Assembly: GCF_900116205.1 (NCBI RefSeq)
Contig: NZ_FOZS01000003.1
Coordinates: 186,001-250,000, forward strand
Direction: 5' to 3'
Source of the DNA: Halostagnicola kamekurae
Lineage (GTDB): Archaea > Halobacteriota > Halobacteria > Halobacteriales > Natrialbaceae
DNA: 64,000 bases
The notes below the pieces were generated by a model. It ran no database searches. It saw only the letters and a list, made by a program, of their open reading frames with translations, and was not told the DNA's origin. Numbering within the stretch: the stretch's first letter is position 1; each line of letters begins with the position of its first letter. A program made the position numbers and the translations under genes. Shown in pieces: positions 9,951-33,741 of this stretch.

Positions 9951-10379
9951 TCAGGGCTCGACCATCACGGTGACGACCGGACGATCGGCATCGAGCAAGA
10001 CGGACTGGGTGACGCTCCCGAACAGCGCTTTCCCGACTGGCGATCGCGGTCTGCCGCCGATAACGATGTATCTGGCATCGACGGCCGCTGCTCGATCGAG
10101 GATCTCTTCTGCGGGATCTCCCACGCGCCCGACCGGTTCGTACTCGTCGATCGCATCCGCCGCGACGTCGGCGACGACTTCCTCGGCGAGTTCCTGCGCT
10201 CTGTCGTCCGAAAGCGTGTCTCGCTCGTTTAGATATTGATTGACGAGATACGCGTGGTCGTCCGCCTCGTAGACGAGGAGCACCTCGAGCGGTTCGCCGA
10301 ACCGTTCGGCGAGCGTCTGGGCTTCCGAGAGGACGCTACTCGAGCCGTTTTCCCCGTCGATGGCTGCCACGATAGTCAT
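9951..10379 (-). CDS. UspA-family universal stress protein
   Basis: Single-domain protein of 142 residues; the start at 10379 gives MTIVAAIDGENGSSSVL, the normal UspA N-terminus. The ATP-binding signature G-x2-G-x9-G-S is present near the C-terminus in GGRPRSPVGKALFGSVTQS, followed by DRPVVTV. This predicts the ATP-binding subclass. It closely resembles the second UspA at the right end of the window around this motif (GGRSRSPAGKALFGSAVQS). Its role in sugar metabolism, if any, is not evident. Confidence 0.88.
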   Translation of the reverse strand: MTIVAAIDGENGSSSVLSEAQTLAERFGEPLEVLLVYEADDHAYLVNQYLNERDTLSDDRAQELAEEVVADVAADAIDEYEPVGRVGDPAEEILDRAAAVDARYIVIGGRPRSPVGKALFGSVTQSVLLDADRPVVTVMVEP

Positions 10380-10602
10380 GGAACCCGCTATCACGTCGGT
10401 GGGTAAATAGGTTCGCGGGCGATTCACCGCGTGCAATCGACAGCCGCCAGAGCTGAAACTGTATACGGAATCGGTTCTGTACCGTGAGAGCCGCCTCAAG
10501 GTCAACGGGGCTACAATCGTAACAAACGGAGTCCACGGAAAATCGAACACGAAGGCGGTCAACGTCGGTTTCAACTGCTTTTGTCCTGGGAGAGTCGGCG
10601 AC

Positions 10603-11646
10603 TCACGCTCTGAGCGCGCTCACGTCGAAGACCGGTTTGCAGGTCTCGCCCGCGACGAACGACTCGAAGGCCTCGTCGGCCTCGAGCAGTGAATACCGGT
10701 CGTCGAGGAACGTCTCGAGGTCGACGTCGCCGGATTCGATGAGTCGCAGCGAGCGCTCGAAATCCTCCCAGGTCGAGGCGTACGAACACTGCAGATCGAT
10801 CTCGGAACGAACCAGCGGCGAGTACGCCATCGTGGTCTCGCCGGTCTGGCCGATCATGACGATCTGGCCGCCCTTGCGGACTTCCTCGACCGCCATCGGC
10901 AGACCGGAAGGGTGGCCCGTCGTATCGAAGACGACGTCGTAGCCCGCGCCGTCGGTCAACTCCTCGCGAACGCCAGCGAGATCGTCGGCTTCGACGTTGA
11001 GCGTCGGGAAGCCGAGTTCCTCGGCGAGTGGAAGGCGATAACTCGTGTCGCTGCCGACGCCGGCGACGACGACGTCCCCGCCCTGCGAGTCTGCGATCTG
11101 TGCCGTCAGCAGGCCGATCGGACCGGGGCCGGCAACGAGCACGCGATCGCCCGCGCCGACGCGAGAGTTCTGGATGACCGCTCTGGCGCCGATGCTCGTC
11201 GGTTCGACCAGCGCGGCGTGTTTCGGGTCGACGCCGTCCTGAACGTGCTGTAGCGCCGTCTCCGGAACCGCGATGTAGCCGGCGTAGGCTCCGTCGTGAT
11301 CGACGCCGGTGATGACCGCGTTCTGACAGACGTTCTCCTCGCCCATCTTGCACTGGTAACACTCGCCACAGCCTCGGATCGGGCGTTCGACGACCCGATC
11401 GCCCACCTGGAATTCGGTGACGCCGTCGGCGGTTTCGACGACGGTTCCGGTGTACTCGTGACCGATGATCGTCGGCAGTTCCATCCGTTCGAACGCAGAC
11501 TCGAACTCGTAGATCCCCGCGTCGCTGCCACAGAGACCCGCGTAATCGACTTCGATCAGCGCCTCGCCTGGCCCCGGATCGGGACGCTCCCGTTCGACGA
11601 GTTCCATGTGGCCGTGCTCTCGGCTCGTTTTCGCAAGTCCACGCAT
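10603..11646 (-). CDS. Zinc-dependent medium-chain alcohol/polyol dehydrogenase
   Basis: MDR-family NAD(P) dehydrogenase of 347 residues. Catalytic zinc ligands are visible as C39 (GLCGSD) and H63-E64 (GHEYTG). The structural zinc site is C93, C96, C99 and C107. The cofactor fold carries VLVAGPGPIGLLTAQIA. The closest functional classes are threonine, sorbitol/xylitol and galactitol-phosphate dehydrogenases; which applies cannot be told. A TATA-like AATTATATC lies about 30 bases upstream of the start. It is co-oriented with xacA 90 bases away, so a role in pentose or polyol oxidation is likely by context. Confidence 0.9.
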   Translation of the reverse strand: MRGLAKTSREHGHMELVERERPDPGPGEALIEVDYAGLCGSDAGIYEFESAFERMELPTIIGHEYTGTVVETADGVTEFQVGDRVVERPIRGCGECYQCKMGEENVCQNAVITGVDHDGAYAGYIAVPETALQHVQDGVDPKHAALVEPTSIGARAVIQNSRVGAGDRVLVAGPGPIGLLTAQIADSQGGDVVVAGVGSDTSYRLPLAEELGFPTLNVEADDLAGVREELTDGAGYDVVFDTTGHPSGLPMAVEEVRKGGQIVMIGQTGETTMAYSPLVRSEIDLQCSYASTWEDFERSLRLIESGDVDLETFLDDRYSLLEADEAFESFVAGETCKPVFDVSALRA

Positions 11647-28393: not shown

Positions 28394-28413
28394 ACACCAC
28401 AATGTCCGCTGTT
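28394..28413 (-). repeat. Origin box copy 1
   Basis: On the minus strand reads AACAGCGGACATTGTGGTGT. Confidence 0.8.
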
Positions 28414-28481
28414 ATTACCGAAGTCGGAAGCGAAATTTCGGGCGAACCGGAAGATTTGCGAGCAAAACCTGACGGAACGAC

Positions 28482-28501
28482 AACAGCGGACACAGTGGTG
28501 T
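28482..28501 (+). repeat. Origin box copy 2
   Basis: AACAGCGGACACAGTGGTGT, identical over 20 bases to copy 3, whose start is 35 bases downstream. Confidence 0.85.
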
Positions 28502-28516
28502 CAATCCGACGAAGAC

Positions 28517-28536
28517 AACAGCGGACACAGTGGTGT
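28517..28536 (+). repeat. Origin box copy 3
   Basis: AACAGCGGACACAGTGGTGT followed by TCGAACG, a flank shared with the distant copy at 33722. Confidence 0.85.
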
Positions 28537-28872
28537 TCGAACGGGGGTCGAAACACGTTTGTCGTACCTCGTGAACTCGATAGAACCACGAGAGAGAACC
28601 ACGAATGCGATGACGATACGCTGTTAATTCTAGACTCGGAACGGACCGTTGAACTCAGAGCGTACGACACAGCCCCTGTAATCGAAAAGAGTTACGAAAG
28701 CTAAGGTGAAAGCGAAGCCGGATTCGAACGTGAATCGATCGTCTCGATGTCGACGCGATTCTGGACATTGATCTCGAGCTGCGGACTGTCGACAGACGAA
28801 GCGGGTTGCGTACCTAGAGATATTCGGATTGTGGTTTCGAAGTCGAGGGTATTCGGATGGGAGCTTCGAAAC

Positions 28873-28892
28873 ACACCACTGTGTCCGCTGTA
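28873..28892 (-). repeat. Origin box copy 4
   Basis: On the minus strand TACAGCGGACACAGTGGTGT. It forms an inverted pair with copy 5, with 20 bases between them. Confidence 0.85.
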
Positions 28893-28912
28893 GTGTGCTA
28901 CTCGACTTTCAG

Positions 28913-28932
28913 AACAGCGGACATCGTGGTGT
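28913..28932 (+). repeat. Origin box copy 5
   Basis: AACAGCGGACATCGTGGTGT; right arm of the inverted pair with copy 4. Confidence 0.85.
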
Positions 28933-29090
28933 GGTGAGAAAGTACCTATCCTCCGATAGCGAGATCCGAAACTCCCACGACGGTGGCGAAGTAGAGATAC
29001 GGCTCATACGAACCGGAGAACGGAGAAACGTTCACTGATGAAAGGACTGAGACCGATTCGGATTATTCTTAGATTGTTCGGAACACACCC

Positions 29091-29110
29091 ACCCCACTTT
29101 GTCCGCTGTT
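29091..29110 (-). repeat. Origin box copy 6
   Basis: On the minus strand AACAGCGGACAAAGTGGGGT. Confidence 0.75.
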
Positions 29111-29302
29111 CTCTCGAAATGGAGGGGTGGGATATGAGATAGTACGCCAACAGATTCTTTCCCATCACAAGAGGATTCATTTTGCTAATACACATCTACT
29201 ACCAACTGATATAGTCCTAGTACGGACTAGCTAGTTACATTAGGTTATAAATCTTCTCCTCTTAATACTACTCCGAAACTCCACACCCACTCATCTTCAC
29301 CG

Positions 29303-29322
29303 TTACAGCGGACATCATGGGG
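29303..29322 (+). repeat. Origin box copy 7 (diverged right half)
   Basis: TTACAGCGGACATCATGGGG; the left core is conserved and the right half is changed. Confidence 0.65.
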
Positions 29323-29357
29323 GGTGTGTGTCCCACCGATTAATATATAAAAGATAG

Positions 29358-29386
29358 AACAGCGGACACTCCGGACACGGTGGTTT
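29358..29386 (+). repeat. Origin box copy 8, expanded, overlapping the orc promoter
   Basis: AACAGCGGACACTCCGGACACGG followed by TGGTTTT. The left core and GTGG block are kept, but about seven bases are inserted and GGACAC is duplicated. It runs into the TATA-like box of orc1/cdc6. Confidence 0.6.
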
Positions 29387-29391
29387 TATAA
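29384..29391 (+). promoter_or_regulatory. TATA-like box of orc1/cdc6
   Basis: TTTATAAA about 34-41 bases before the ATG at 29425, at the end of origin box copy 8. Binding of the initiator there could repress its own gene (inference). Confidence 0.55.
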
Positions 29392-29424
29392 ACCATCGTG
29401 AGAATATATCATCTAAGAAAGCGA

Positions 29425-30702
29425 ATGGGTCTGTTCGAACGCGACACGGAAATCTACAAAAACCGGGATGCACTGCGCGAGGACTATCAGCCCGAAGAAC
29501 TCGTCGGACGGGACGAAGAGATTCAGATGTACCAGGCGTCACTCCAACCTGTTATCAACGGGGAGCAACCGAATAACGTCTTTCTCTACGGAAAGACTGG
29601 TGTCGGTAAAACGGCTGCAACCCGGTATCTCCTCTCGCATCTCGAGGAAGACGCGAACCAGTACGACGACATCGATCTCCACCTGACCTTTCTCAACTGC
29701 GACGGTCTGACGTCTTCGTATCAGATCGCGACGCGGCTGGTCAACGAACTCCGCGAGGAGACGAACCAGATCAGTACGACCGGGTATCCGCGGGCGACGG
29801 TCTACGAAATGCTGTGGGACGATCTCGACTCGATCGGTGGAACGAATTTGATCGTCTTAGACGAGGTCGACCACGTCGAAGACGATTCAATTCTGTACCA
29901 ACTCCCGCGAGCGCGTGCAAACAACAATCTCACCGAAGCAAAGATCGGAATCATCGGCATCTCGAACGACTTTTCGTTCCGGGACGACCTCTCGCCGAAG
30001 GTCAAAAGCTCACTCTGTGAGCAGGAGATCCACTTTCCGGCCTACGACGCCGGCGATCTTCAGAAAATCCTCGAACAGCGGGCGGAGGTCGCGTTCCACG
30101 ATGGGGTCATCGACGATGCGGTGATTCCGCTGTGTGCTGCCTACGGGGCGAAAGATGCGGGTGACGCCCGCCAGTCGATCGATCTGCTGATGAAAGCGGG
30201 CGATCTGGCTCGAGAGGAAGAGGTCGCCCAGGAGCAACAAGACGAGATCGTCATCACCGAAGAACACGTCGAGGCGGGTCGACACGACCTCGAGCGTGGT
30301 CGCATCGAGGAAGGGATCAACGGATTGACCCAGCACGGCCACCTCGTCCTCTATTCGCTGTTGACGTTACATCTCCAGAACGAGACCCCGATACGATCGC
30401 GCGACGTCCGACCTCGATACACCAATTTCGCCCAGCGGGCGGGACGCGACCCGCTGGTCCCTCGTCGCATGCGCGATCACCTCTCGGAGCTCGCGATGCT
30501 CGGACTCGTGTCCGTTACGGAGCGCAACGAGGGTCGCCGCGGTGGGACGTACCGCGAGTATACCCTCGATATGGACATCGAACTGATCCTCTCTGCCCTC
30601 GACGACGTGCTCGATGACGTCGGGATACACGACTCAGTTCAACGATATTTGACCGATAGCGAGTCACCCGATGGCGACACGTCGTTGTCGGAATTTCAGT
30701 AA
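29425..30702 (+). CDS. orc1/cdc6: Orc1/Cdc6 replication initiator
   Basis: Origin recognition and helicase-loading ATPase, 425 residues. The ATG at 29425 gives the familiar MGLFERDTEIYKNRDALRED start; a GTG 27 bases earlier is possible. Walker A is GKTGVGKT at 56-63 and Walker B LIVLDEVD at 142-149. The sensor-1 strand is IGIIGISNDFSFRDDL, followed by the initiator-specific region and the arginine-bearing sensor-2 helix (GDARQSIDLLMKAGDLA). A C-terminal winged helix covers roughly residues 300-410. It lies immediately right of the box cluster, so it very likely recognises those boxes. Haloarchaea carry several orc1/cdc6 paralogues, each often tied to its own origin. Confidence 0.95.
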   Translation: MGLFERDTEIYKNRDALREDYQPEELVGRDEEIQMYQASLQPVINGEQPNNVFLYGKTGVGKTAATRYLLSHLEEDANQYDDIDLHLTFLNCDGLTSSYQIATRLVNELREETNQISTTGYPRATVYEMLWDDLDSIGGTNLIVLDEVDHVEDDSILYQLPRARANNNLTEAKIGIIGISNDFSFRDDLSPKVKSSLCEQEIHFPAYDAGDLQKILEQRAEVAFHDGVIDDAVIPLCAAYGAKDAGDARQSIDLLMKAGDLAREEEVAQEQQDEIVITEEHVEAGRHDLERGRIEEGINGLTQHGHLVLYSLLTLHLQNETPIRSRDVRPRYTNFAQRAGRDPLVPRRMRDHLSELAMLGLVSVTERNEGRRGGTYREYTLDMDIELILSALDDVLDDVGIHDSVQRYLTDSESPDGDTSLSEFQ

Positions 30703-30773
30703 CGGGACTCCTTCGATTTCAGCAACGAGGCTTTTTCGTCCGAAAGCTTCACACGCGAGACCGTCTCCGATCA

Positions 30774-30793
30774 ACACCAGTATGTCCGCAGTA
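30774..30793 (-). repeat. Origin box copy 9, downstream of orc1/cdc6
   Basis: On the minus strand TACTGCGGACATACTGGTGT. It lies 71 bases after the orc stop; two short ACGGACTGCnGTA repeats follow within 40 bases. Confidence 0.6.
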
Positions 30794-30996
30794 ATTCCAC
30801 GGACTGCGGTACTCCCACGGACTGCAGTAACTCCTGTGGTGGAGATATACTGTGAAACAGACAGGGTGTCATAGAACAGTTCGCATGCCCTCTCTGTGAC
30901 TACTCGAGGAACGGTAAGTAGAGATGAACTACTCACTGGCCGTTGAAAGTCATACAGAGCGGACAATTTTTCACGCTCCTTCTATTTCAATCCATT

Positions 30997-31263
30997 ATGA
31001 ACCGACCATCTGTCTTTTATGGGTTTTCAGCAATTCTGGGAATAGCAATTGGTGTGGACGGCTTTATTTCGGGAACAACGGATGGTTTTGGTATTTTTGT
31101 CATGTTGGTGTGCGGTGGTGGAGCCCTGCTTGTCATCACATCACTGTACAAGACATTCTCAACTGACCCATCAGAGTTCCAAGTGCCGTTCTACGCTATT
31201 CTTGTAATGGGTCTTTGCGCCCTCATGGCCCTTCTCAGCGTCGTTCTACAGGTCGCCGGTTGA
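30997..31263 (+). CDS. Small hydrophobic membrane protein
   Basis: Predicted 88-residue protein of unknown function from the ATG at 30997 (MNRPSVFYGFSAILG). Three membrane helices are likely: about residues 5-25, 30-50 and 65-87 (FYAILVMGLCALMALLSVVLQVAG). GC content and codon use are clearly lower than in surrounding genes, suggesting recent acquisition. It lies between the origin gene and a flavoprotein gene, with no operon partner. The open frame also extends 54 bases upstream. Confidence 0.6.
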   Translation: MNRPSVFYGFSAILGIAIGVDGFISGTTDGFGIFVMLVCGGGALLVITSLYKTFSTDPSEFQVPFYAILVMGLCALMALLSVVLQVAG

Positions 31264-31589
31264 ATACTCAGAGTACTCCTATCATATTGGTTTAAAAATA
31301 AAATTGTTTTTCACTTCAGGATTGCGAGTGAAGAGTTCGCAGGTATAGTGAACAGATAATTCAGTTCGGATAGGACGAAAGGAACTCCATGTAGATTGCA
31401 CTATTCTTCCTCTTGAAACACATTCAATACGAACTTACCAGATCGTTAACCCTAAATCTGTTCATCTGACTCTCGTTCTGTTCCTCCGACTCTAATTTTG
31501 TCCGTCTACCGACATCTCCAAACTATGGTTGTTACTCAGTCTCATACGGGCTATTTTTCCGTCTGATCTGTGTATATCGGTGTGGTCCG
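31264..31589. other. AT-rich non-coding interval
   Basis: No gene is seen. The sequence right after the small membrane-protein gene contains an A/T run ending in TTGTTTTT, a plausible archaeal terminator. At about 31455-31495 two similar 20-base direct repeats (TCTGTTCATCTGACTCT and TCTGTTCCTCCGACTCT) occur. Confidence 0.5.
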
Positions 31590-32303
31590 ATGACGCGAAC
31601 CGCCACTCTCGTCGACACGTACCGCCTCGCGCCGCAAGTGAAAGGGTTTCGACTCCGTATTTCCGGTGAATCCCTCGAGTTCGATCCCGGACAACACACG
31701 ACGGTCCAGTTCGAGGCCGACGGCAAGGAGGTCGTGCGGCCCTACAGTCCCACGACCCTTCCCGGCACCGACGAGTTCGCACTCGCGATCAAGCGCTACG
31801 ACGACGGCCTCGCATCTTCGTACATGCATAGCCGATCTCCGGGTGACGAAATCGAAATCGGGGAGTTCGAGGGAAACCTTTCTCTCGAGGATCCGGACCG
31901 CGATATCGCCCTGCTCGCGAGCGGAACCGGTCTCACGCCGCTGCTTTCGATCCTCAGACAGTACGCGCGTGTCGGGAGCGGCGACGCACACCTCGTCTTC
32001 GGCGAGCGGACAAGTGACTCGATCTTCCATCGGAGCACGTTAGAGGAGCTCGCGGCGACGTACGCCTCCGTCGAGACGACCTACACGCTCTCGGATCCGG
32101 AGTGGGACTGGCTCGACCGGACCGGCTACGTACAGGAGCACCTCGAGGACCTCTTCGACGATTTCGAGTCCCGGGACTTCTACGTCTGTGGCGTCCCCGG
32201 TATGGTCGTCGAGACGGAAGACGAGCTCCGCGACCTCGGTACGCCGGAGGAACGGATCCACAGCGAGGGGTGGGAAGACGACGCAGTCGCTGAGGATTCG
32301 TGA
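31590..32303 (+). CDS. FAD-binding oxidoreductase, ferredoxin-NADP reductase type
   Basis: Flavoprotein of 237 residues moving electrons between NAD(P)H and a small carrier such as ferredoxin. The FAD-binding domain shows the RxYS signature in VVRPYSPTT near residue 50, and the NAD(P) domain begins with LLASGTGLTPLLSILRQ. The C-terminal FYVCGVPGMV segment is the pyridine-nucleotide strand typical of the family. Its natural partner is unknown. A Rieske protein lies 10 kb away but is not linked. The C-terminus is acidic. Confidence 0.9.
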   Translation: MTRTATLVDTYRLAPQVKGFRLRISGESLEFDPGQHTTVQFEADGKEVVRPYSPTTLPGTDEFALAIKRYDDGLASSYMHSRSPGDEIEIGEFEGNLSLEDPDRDIALLASGTGLTPLLSILRQYARVGSGDAHLVFGERTSDSIFHRSTLEELAATYASVETTYTLSDPEWDWLDRTGYVQEHLEDLFDDFESRDFYVCGVPGMVVETEDELRDLGTPEERIHSEGWEDDAVAEDS

Positions 32304-32354
32304 ACCCACTCGCCTCGAAACACATGGCGTGAACCGCCTCGGGGTCAAGTGGTT

Positions 32355-32454
32355 CGAGACGCCAAAGGCGTCTCGTCACTAAGCGAGATCGGAGATCCCG
32401 CGAGGTCCGCGAACCCGAAGGGTTCGCTTGATCCCGAAAGACTTCGTCTTTCGG
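32355..32454. repeat. Cluster of perfect hairpins (REP-like)
   Basis: Three perfect stem-loops with three-base loops lie within 100 bases: 32355-32375 (9-bp stem CGAGACGCC), 32409-32427 (8-bp stem GCGAACCC) and 32434-32454 (9-bp stem CCGAAAGAC). A weaker one (CGAGATC/GATC) sits near 32383. The first begins about 50 bases after the flavoprotein stop. They could act as a transcription end, or be a piece of a dispersed palindromic element or IS end; neither is proven. Confidence 0.7.
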
Positions 32455-32559
32455 ACGACTCCGAGGCACTCGGCTTGCTCCGCCTGTAGAGGCACCGCTC
32501 CAGTAGCCAAGGTGGGCGAGATTTTATCCAATTAGATGCTGAAAACTCTACTACTGTAC

Positions 32560-32613
32560 TTCACTGGCCACTGCACAAACATAATGCGAATTCACTGACC
32601 ATTGCACAAATAT
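32560..32613 (+). repeat. Two 23-bp direct repeats, 31-bp period
   Basis: TTCACTGGCCACTGCACAAA at 32560 (then CAT) and TTCACTGACCATTGCACAAA at 32591 (then TAT). Three mismatches in 23 bases. They lie 34-87 bases upstream of the antiporter start and may be operator sites. Confidence 0.6.
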
Positions 32614-32646
32614 GTCGAGAACTACCCTTGCTGAGTACGAGACCGG

Positions 32647-33648
32647 ATGATAGACGGCGGACTCGTTGCACTCGTCACGTTGGCTCTGAGCATCGTGGTC
32701 CTATGGATCGGTGCGGAGGTGTTCGTGTCCCACGCGGCCAGAGTGGCGCGGCGCTTCGGCCTCTCGGAGCTGGTCGTCGGCCTCACAGTGGTCGCGATGG
32801 GAACCTCGGCACCGGAGGCTGCCGTCAGTGTCGACGCCGCGCTCGCCGGAAACGGTGACATCGCGGTAGCGAACGTCGTCGGCTCGAACCTCTTTAACAT
32901 CGGAATCGTGCTCGGCGGGATCGCGGCCATCGTCGGCGTTCGAAGCTCAGCTCGGATGGTCCGCCGAGACGGAACGGCGATGGTACTTTCGACGCTGCTG
33001 CTGTTGGCGGTCCTGTGGGACCTCCGGGTTACCCGTCTCGAAGGGGTCGCCCTGCTCGTTGCGTTCGTCGGCTATATCGCAATTCTGTTCGTCCGACCGG
33101 ACGAATTGGAGGAAGATCCAATAAACGAACGGGGGGAGGGTTTGATGGACGAACCGGTAGAAGATTCGACGGACGAACCCGTGGAAGATCCAATGGACGA
33201 ACGCGGGGCAACGTGGCGGACGGCTCTCCTTCTCGTCGGCGGGCTCGGCACCATCGTCGTCGGTGCACACTTCCTCGTGGAATCGGCAGTGGCCGTCGCC
33301 GAGTCGGCAGGCCTCTCCGAGTGGGTCATCGGGGAAACCATCGTCGCAGTCGGTACTTCCACCCCGGAGATCGTCGCTTCCGTTGCCGCCGCCCGGAAGG
33401 GAATGGGCGATATCTCCGCCGGCAACCTCATCGGGAGTAACGTCTTCAATGCGCTGTTCGTTCTGGGCGTCACGTCGACGCTCACGCCTATCGCAATCGC
33501 AGCGACCGCCATCGGAACCACGGTCTGGCTGCTTGGTCTCTCCGTGCTCACCGCTTTGCTGCTCGGAACGGACAGGAAGTTAGGGCGACTCGAGGGAGCG
33601 ACGCTCATGGCGATCAACTTGGGCCGGTGGATACTCGACGTGGTGTAG
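32647..33648 (+). CDS. Calcium/sodium antiporter (CaCA family, YrbG type)
   Basis: Cation exchanger of 333 residues with two homologous halves. The alpha-1 repeat is VVGLTVVAMGTSAPEAAVSV with GNGDIAVANVVGSNLFNIG. The alpha-2 repeat is VIGETIVAVGTSTPEIVASV with GDISAGNLIGSNVFNALFVL. The conserved acidic residues (E in APEA and TPEI) are present. The loop between halves carries an acidic insert built from a repeated DEPVED unit. Direction and ion preference are not readable from sequence. The two 23-bp repeats upstream may control it. Confidence 0.92.
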   Translation: MIDGGLVALVTLALSIVVLWIGAEVFVSHAARVARRFGLSELVVGLTVVAMGTSAPEAAVSVDAALAGNGDIAVANVVGSNLFNIGIVLGGIAAIVGVRSSARMVRRDGTAMVLSTLLLLAVLWDLRVTRLEGVALLVAFVGYIAILFVRPDELEEDPINERGEGLMDEPVEDSTDEPVEDPMDERGATWRTALLLVGGLGTIVVGAHFLVESAVAVAESAGLSEWVIGETIVAVGTSTPEIVASVAAARKGMGDISAGNLIGSNVFNALFVLGVTSTLTPIAIAATAIGTTVWLLGLSVLTALLLGTDRKLGRLEGATLMAINLGRWILDVV

Positions 33649-33721
33649 TCACGGCCCCTCCATCAACCGACGCTTCTCGACCGAACGCGTTTCCCAACGA
33701 ATTCGAACCAGCCAACCCGCT

Positions 33722-33741
33722 AACAGCGGACGCGGTGGTGT
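33722..33741 (+). repeat. Origin box copy 10, distant from the origin
   Basis: AACAGCGGACGCGGTGGTGT followed by TCGAACG, about 3 kb right of the orc gene, in the gap between the antiporter and DUF2070 genes. Confidence 0.7.

Follow-up and report, generated by a model that had tools for sequence, protein, structure and literature searches.

Do the short boxes clustered around an orc1/cdc6 gene of Halostagnicola kamekurae form, together with that gene, a replication origin, and if so an origin of what kind? The question is raised by the 64,000-nucleotide stretch analysed here (the window; C3:186001-250000 of the 4.1-Mb assembly of the organism's own genome). A preliminary description of this DNA had proposed an origin whose pairing of initiator and box might be lineage-specific. 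The evidence set out below argues, with a probability of about 0.82, that the locus serves a large secondary replicon as an Orc1/Cdc6-dependent origin of replication, of the oriP-cdc6K type and presumably active in this strain. An array of half-boxes fused to the promoter of the orc gene matters more than the origin itself and is the part for specialist attention.

Ten boxes around an initiator gene

The initiator gene occupies 29425-30702 (+) and encodes a protein of 425 aa. In the adjoining intergenic region a left core box, AACAGCGGACAAAGTGGGGT at 29091-29110 (-), and a right core box, TACAGCGGACATCATGGGGG at 29304-29323 (+), both located by weight matrix, stand in inverted orientation on either side of an AT-rich stretch at 29111-29303, which on base composition is a candidate unwinding element (193 bp, 41% GC, with 33% GC in its lowest 60 bp). 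Inverted boxes that flank AT-rich DNA next to an orc gene are the arrangement by which a haloarchaeal origin is recognised. The right core box runs on into a G-rich string, GGGGGGTGTGTGT, and the left core box ends in GTGGGGTGGGTGTGT; the outlying boxes end in TGGTGT only. All ten boxes of the preliminary description, with their places and orientations, were borne out by query matching, by a weight matrix and by the sequence itself. Seven copies lie within three mismatches of the query, when none is expected (100 shuffles); the weight-matrix scan yielded two further boxes, the right core box and the one at 30774-30793 (-); and a degenerate tenth, at 29358-29383, is visible in the sequence itself.

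Upstream of the core, outlying boxes found by both query match and weight matrix lie at 28394-28413 (-; AACAGCGGACATTGTGGTGT), 28482-28501 (+; AACAGCGGACACAGTGGTGT) and 28517-28536 (+), the last two having the same letters and lying 35 bp apart, as had been reported. Also as reported, the boxes at 28873-28892 (-) and 28913-28932 (+), found by query match, form a divergent pair with a gap of 20 bp. On the far side of the gene are a downstream box, TACTGCGGACATACTGGTGT, at 30774-30793 (-) and, 3 kb past orc, a remote box, AACAGCGGACGCGGTGGTGT, at 33722-33741 (+; query match). The AT-rich element TATATAAAAG at 29344-29353 (+), present in most relatives, either acts as an upstream TATA box or belongs to the origin.

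The box is specific to this kind of neighbourhood. Over the whole 4.1-Mb genome, every match to ACNGCGGACANNGTGGNGT with 0-1 mismatch falls within the locus (C3:214394-219741), except one at C8:13124, and this lone off-locus match adjoins an orc fragment; the reversed ACNGCGGACANNGTGGNGT used as a control pattern gave no match genome-wide. Clusters with two mismatches elsewhere (on C6, C8 and C7, and at C3:412 kb) also adjoin orc genes or remnants, each in a slightly different dialect. Frequent occurrence of the box far from origins, which the preliminary description had named as one observation that would count against it, was thus not found in the genome-wide search. Two simpler accounts were rejected: that the boxes are chance repeats, by the shuffles together with the genome-wide confinement, and that the box is dispersed through the genome, by the restriction of 0-1-mismatch matches to the locus and one orc fragment.

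The protein is a member of the AAA+ class in the profile search, in which TIGR02928 scored 433 bits and both Cdc6_lid and the Cdc6_C winged helix were above cut-off. The nearest solved structures, aligned over about 385 residues, are 2qby_A and 2v1u_A, which we take to be Sulfolobus Orc1-1 and Aeropyrum Orc1, respectively, both presumably as DNA complexes. Alignment with annotated relatives placed the start at ATG 29425 and not at GTG 29398, the first in-frame codon of this kind upstream. The closest relatives, 95-96.5% identical, are from Halostagnicola.

Probable membership of a proven origin type

A genome scan returned 38 loci from many haloarchaeal genera, all with the box around orc, and the box is present also in pHH400, Haloferax mediterranei and H. 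larsenii. Among plasmid records, the family (at least 70% identity) occurs on replicons of 94-990 kb, whose hosts include H. larsenii (573,680 bp), Natrinema, Natronorubrum, Haloferax, Halobaculum, Haloarcula and Halarchaeum. A tree of 114 proteins, built by a quick method, groups the family as a clade of 45 (support 97 in the Shimodaira-Hasegawa-like approximate likelihood-ratio test, SH-aLRT) with pHH400 Cdc6K at its base; two more sequences, labelled as family by a loose regular expression, were false positives in the tree. The wide range of genera and the Orc clade rule out a lineage-specific pair, so that of the original reading the initiator with its cognate boxes is well supported while the lineage-specific type is not.

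The closest experimental counterpart is oriP-cdc6K on plasmid pHH400 of Haloarcula hispanica, for which autonomously replicating sequence (ARS) activity, failure to delete the origin or gene, and a single marker-frequency origin have been reported (PMC3528665, PMC3936714). The H. hispanica family member is the only orc match on pHH400 and on that ground is equated with the published Cdc6K. It is 73% identical to the window Orc, lies in the same clade and shares the box type (AACAGCGGACATCGTGGTGT and others, at 405.0-405.8 and 1.2-1.4 kb of NC_015944). The layout is shared as well: inverted core boxes upstream of orc, downstream boxes, and a composite half-box element before orc, here longer than in the window (AACAGCGGA CACTCCGGA CACTGCGGA CAGGGG TGGTTTTAT). 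The left core box of pHH400 differs from that of the window in lying at -457. It is this identity of protein clade, box and layout with a proven origin that upholds the earlier proposal that the boxes and Orc1/Cdc6 together make an origin.

A second counterpart is one of the two origin-linked cdc6 genes of H. mediterranei pHM500/pHME505 (either cdc6L or cdc6M), whose Orc is 77% identical, with the same boxes and the same 63-bp spacing from right core box to array, although there a box cluster lies near parA, 2.5 kb downstream. The two origins of that plasmid both have ARS activity, and one is dormant (PMC4595724). The box itself has a published relative, TAACAGCGGAAACAGTGGGGTGGGGGGGT, in the origin II boxes of Halorubrum lacusprofundi Hla_3512 and Haloquadratum walsbyi HQ2959A (PMC3528665). 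This shares 18 of 20 bases with the window box over the aligned part, contrary to the view that the box is unlike haloarchaeal origin boxes; those boxes have GGAAA for GGACA and a longer G-string, and are nearer to the box of a contig C6 paralogue (53% identity) in the H. kamekurae genome. A literature search for GCGGACA with haloarchaea returned nothing on origins, its sole match concerning acetyltransferase mutants.

In 2014 oriP-cdc6K was stated to be seemingly restricted to Haloarcula (PMC4441112). Taken as the mark of the origin type, the box and orc gene have a distribution across genera that contradicts this, and the window locus is very probably an unremarkable, if well-preserved, example of a proven type of megaplasmid origin whose host range is wider than published.

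The anatomy is conserved among the relatives (41 loci). The left core box, on the minus strand, lies at -289 to -400 from the orc start in 37 loci, and the right core box, on the plus strand, at -110 to -138 in all 41; between them they enclose 159-268 bp, usually AT-rich. Upstream, each locus has several outlying boxes, which often pair divergently (gaps of 13-31 bp in 36 of 83 minus-plus neighbours). Boxes are present downstream of orc in 37 of the 41, and remote ones, 2.5-6 kb away, in 18. These downstream and remote copies are candidate titration sites, the likeliest role for them on the model of H. hispanica oriC2, where a region of 11 boxes lying downstream of cdc6E holds the origin in check, probably through titration (PMC3936714). 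In Halobaculum saliterrae (L047), the downstream boxes take the form of a regular, iteron-like 34-bp array of about seven copies, 1506-1710 bp after the start of the orc match, and an uncultured member of the Halobacteria (L061) has a 39-bp array of about eight copies.

A half-box array fused to the orc promoter

The eighth copy of the preliminary description is present, at 29358/29367 (+), but it is not a plain box. It consists of 9-bp tandem half-boxes, AACAGCGGA-CACTCCGGA, followed by CACGGTGG, the whole composite array (29358-29383, +) abutting TTTTAT at 29384-29389 (+) and so being fused to the orc promoter; the orc ATG begins 36 bp after the last base of this hexamer. The tandem, between right core box and orc start, recurs in 41 of 41 loci, and in 38 of these the array abuts TTTTAT or a close variant. 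The distance from right core box to array is 61-63 bp in 32 loci, 71-72 bp in eight and 83 bp in one, and the longer spacings hold an additional 9-bp unit, indicating growth by whole units. Since the 9-bp steps come from whole added units, no separate claim of helical phasing is made.

To assess how general the array is, another 60 orc loci were taken from sampled genomes of the class, with protein similarity as the sole criterion, and were combined with the paralogues of the H. kamekurae genome and members of the C6 family, giving 74 promoters in 21 clusters at 60% identity. The sample consists of hits to plasmid-type Orc, and chromosomal orc1-type genes are under-represented in it. With a threshold of at least 8 of 10 positions, 11 of the 21 cluster representatives carry the 9-bp tandem, where shuffling gives 0.44 (never more than 2 in 100 shuffles). 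One member or more has it in 15 of the 21 haloarchaeal orc clusters, as do 66% of sampled orc promoters, against 3.8% of 448 control promoters. Among periods 5-15 scanned in the orc promoters, none was enriched except 9. In most clusters, not all, the unit agrees more often with the intergenic boxes at the same locus than with boxes from other families (for example 6 vs 1.3, 10 vs 0.7 and 5 vs 1.3).

The position of the hexamer bears on what the array does. Among 45 promoters with a recognised tail, 26 have TTTTA 30-32 bp before the ATG, and because this is the distance expected in a leaderless gene, TTTTAT is regarded as the putative TATA box of a leaderless orc gene; in H. volcanii leaderless transcripts are the commonest class, at 72% of protein-coding transcripts (PMC4983044). 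It is therefore tempting to suggest that the array serves as an operator by which each initiator controls the expression of its own gene, a proposal given somewhat better than even odds. With similarly guarded confidence, the initiator genes of haloarchaeal secondary replicons would share a device of two to four half-boxes, in exact 9-bp steps and in the dialect of the origin boxes at the same locus, fused to the orc TATA box, so that each Orc would read the promoter of its own gene.

Two observations weigh against so general a device: three paralogues in the H. kamekurae genome, on contigs C1 and C4, lack the tandem, and the 9-bp unit of the C5 paralogue matches arrays upstream of parA instead of its own origin boxes. 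On that contig (L089:9923-10227), 9-bp AACGAANNN repeats occur in three clusters just upstream of a parA-like gene (10215-11033), and the orc promoter has two copies of the matching unit (AGCAAACGA x2). These repeats are possibly a signal shared by partition and initiator.

The strongest competing account of the array is that it serves in unwinding or initiator assembly at the origin and is not a transcriptional operator. Repeats beside AT-rich DNA serve initiator assembly in bacterial origins, and the array does lie inside the origin, separated from the right core box by 61-63 bp in most relatives and with AT-rich DNA on both sides. Against such a role, the array in many families sits flush with a TATA-like TTTTAT whose distance from the orc ATG is nearly constant (30-32 bp) and fits a leaderless haloarchaeal gene (PMC4983044). 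The assembly account is considered doubtful, though the best placed of the alternatives.

The operator reading has a familiar bacterial parallel in DnaA autoregulation, which acts through DnaA boxes in the dnaA promoter. There, as in the operator reading, half-sites bound by the initiator lie next to the origin in the promoter of the initiator gene; the promoter machinery is unrelated, and the haloarchaeal form is a 9-bp tandem abutting a TATA box, with regulation inferred from sequence. The promoter-fused half-box array appears to be the new part of the finding: no report of orc autoregulation or of promoter half-boxes in archaea was found in the literature searched, the figures and supplements of a 2012 origin survey lying outside the search, so that an earlier mention, or a drawing of the array as uncommented boxes, is possible.

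A model for the locus

The mechanism envisaged is as follows. Orc would bind the boxes and, with the core boxes at 29091 and 29304 facing apart, would sit on either side of the AT-rich stretch, where unwinding and MCM loading would take place. The outlying, downstream and remote boxes may add or titrate initiator. With the array directly beside the orc TATA box, an Orc bound to it would most likely block TBP/TFB and so repress its own gene. Repression is considered more likely than activation since Orc on the array would cover the region of the TATA box and B recognition element (BRE). Autorepression would tie the supply of initiator to the copy number of the origin.

Presumed activity of the origin in this strain

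Several points weigh against an origin that fires in this strain. The global skew extremes of the window contig (491 kb, linear and possibly incomplete) either are not significant or do not lie at orc. Further orc genes and remnants are numerous in the genome, and haloarchaea are known to have dormant origins (PMC4595724). The purine (RY) skew of pHH400 has its maximum at 6.8 kb, near orc, and its minimum at 194 kb, and that of the H. larsenii plasmid has maxima at 5-15 kb, near orc, and a minimum at 242 kb, in both cases beyond block permutations. At the window orc the GC skew passes from positive to negative (+0.020 / -0.006 over 40 kb), with the same polarity as in pHH400 (+0.011 / -0.015), which lends weak support to the origin.

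It might accordingly be supposed that the locus is a genuine origin of the family that is dormant here, the replicon being started elsewhere. H. mediterranei has dormant but ARS-competent origins, including on pHM500 (PMC4595724); the window contig has another orc remnant with related boxes at C3:411.7-412.3 kb; and its skew has no peak at the window orc. The window orc is nevertheless intact, with the full anatomy and no signs of decay, whereas the other orc on the contig is fragmentary, and in H. larsenii the homologue is the only orc match (tblastn) on the 574-kb plasmid and lies near the skew extremes. Dormancy is on this evidence unlikely, and an active origin is preferred. Far less probable still is that the boxes serve a plasmid regulon as operators, or a partition protein as a centromere, as boxes downstream and up to 3-5 kb off, the 9-bp array upstream of parA on C5 and the box cluster near parA in H. 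mediterranei might suggest, since no parA adjoins the boxes in the window, the box sequence tracks the adjacent orc across the paralogues of the genome, and H. hispanica needs the adjacent cdc6 gene for origin activity (PMC3936714).

Box dialects within one genome

Each paralogue in the genome has a box of its own: AACAGCGGAAGCAGTGGGGT for the C6 paralogue, AACACTTGCAGGGTGGTGTG for that on C7, TTCACCGGAAACNCGGTGTG for that on C4, ATACAGCGGCAACGCGGGGTGT for that at C1:629k, and TTCCAGTCGAAACGAAGGGGTG for the presumed oriC1 gene at C1:167-169 kb. For this reason the window box, to judge by its letters, is one dialect of the archaeal origin box, close to the published sequence from Halorubrum and Haloquadratum. 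A linkage of Orc family and box type has already been published (PMC3528665).

Contig C7 (L090) has two orc genes about 2 kb apart, in opposite directions and with unrelated dialects, AACACTTGCAGGGTGGTGTG and TTTACACTTCGATGACGGGGGG. Many orc remnants are scattered over the assembly (C6:17427-18608, C14, C2:290k, C8:12.8k, C3:411.7k and C13), among them the closest paralogue, with an in-frame TAA, and several are still flanked by recognisable boxes of the ACACTGGACATGGTGGGGT type. The Orc1 of the presumed oriC1 (L095:6945-9080) owes its length of 711 aa to an acidic Ser/Thr/Asp-rich insert of more than 200 residues inside the AAA+ domain, which by eye is not intein-like.

Significance

That a proven megaplasmid origin type reaches beyond Haloarcula into many genera provides a natural series in which to study initiator-box specificity. 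Because the 9-bp unit changes its letters together with the origin boxes, the promoter arrays would add many independent initiator-box pairs from which the recognition code of the Orc winged helix might be read. Little is known of how the supply of initiator is controlled in archaea, and the array is a concrete sequence device, open to test through mutation of a few bases. If the proposal is true, it would be an archaeal counterpart of the autoregulation of DnaA and of iteron plasmids, and every replicon would have a private copy-number loop whose dialect changes together with its initiator.

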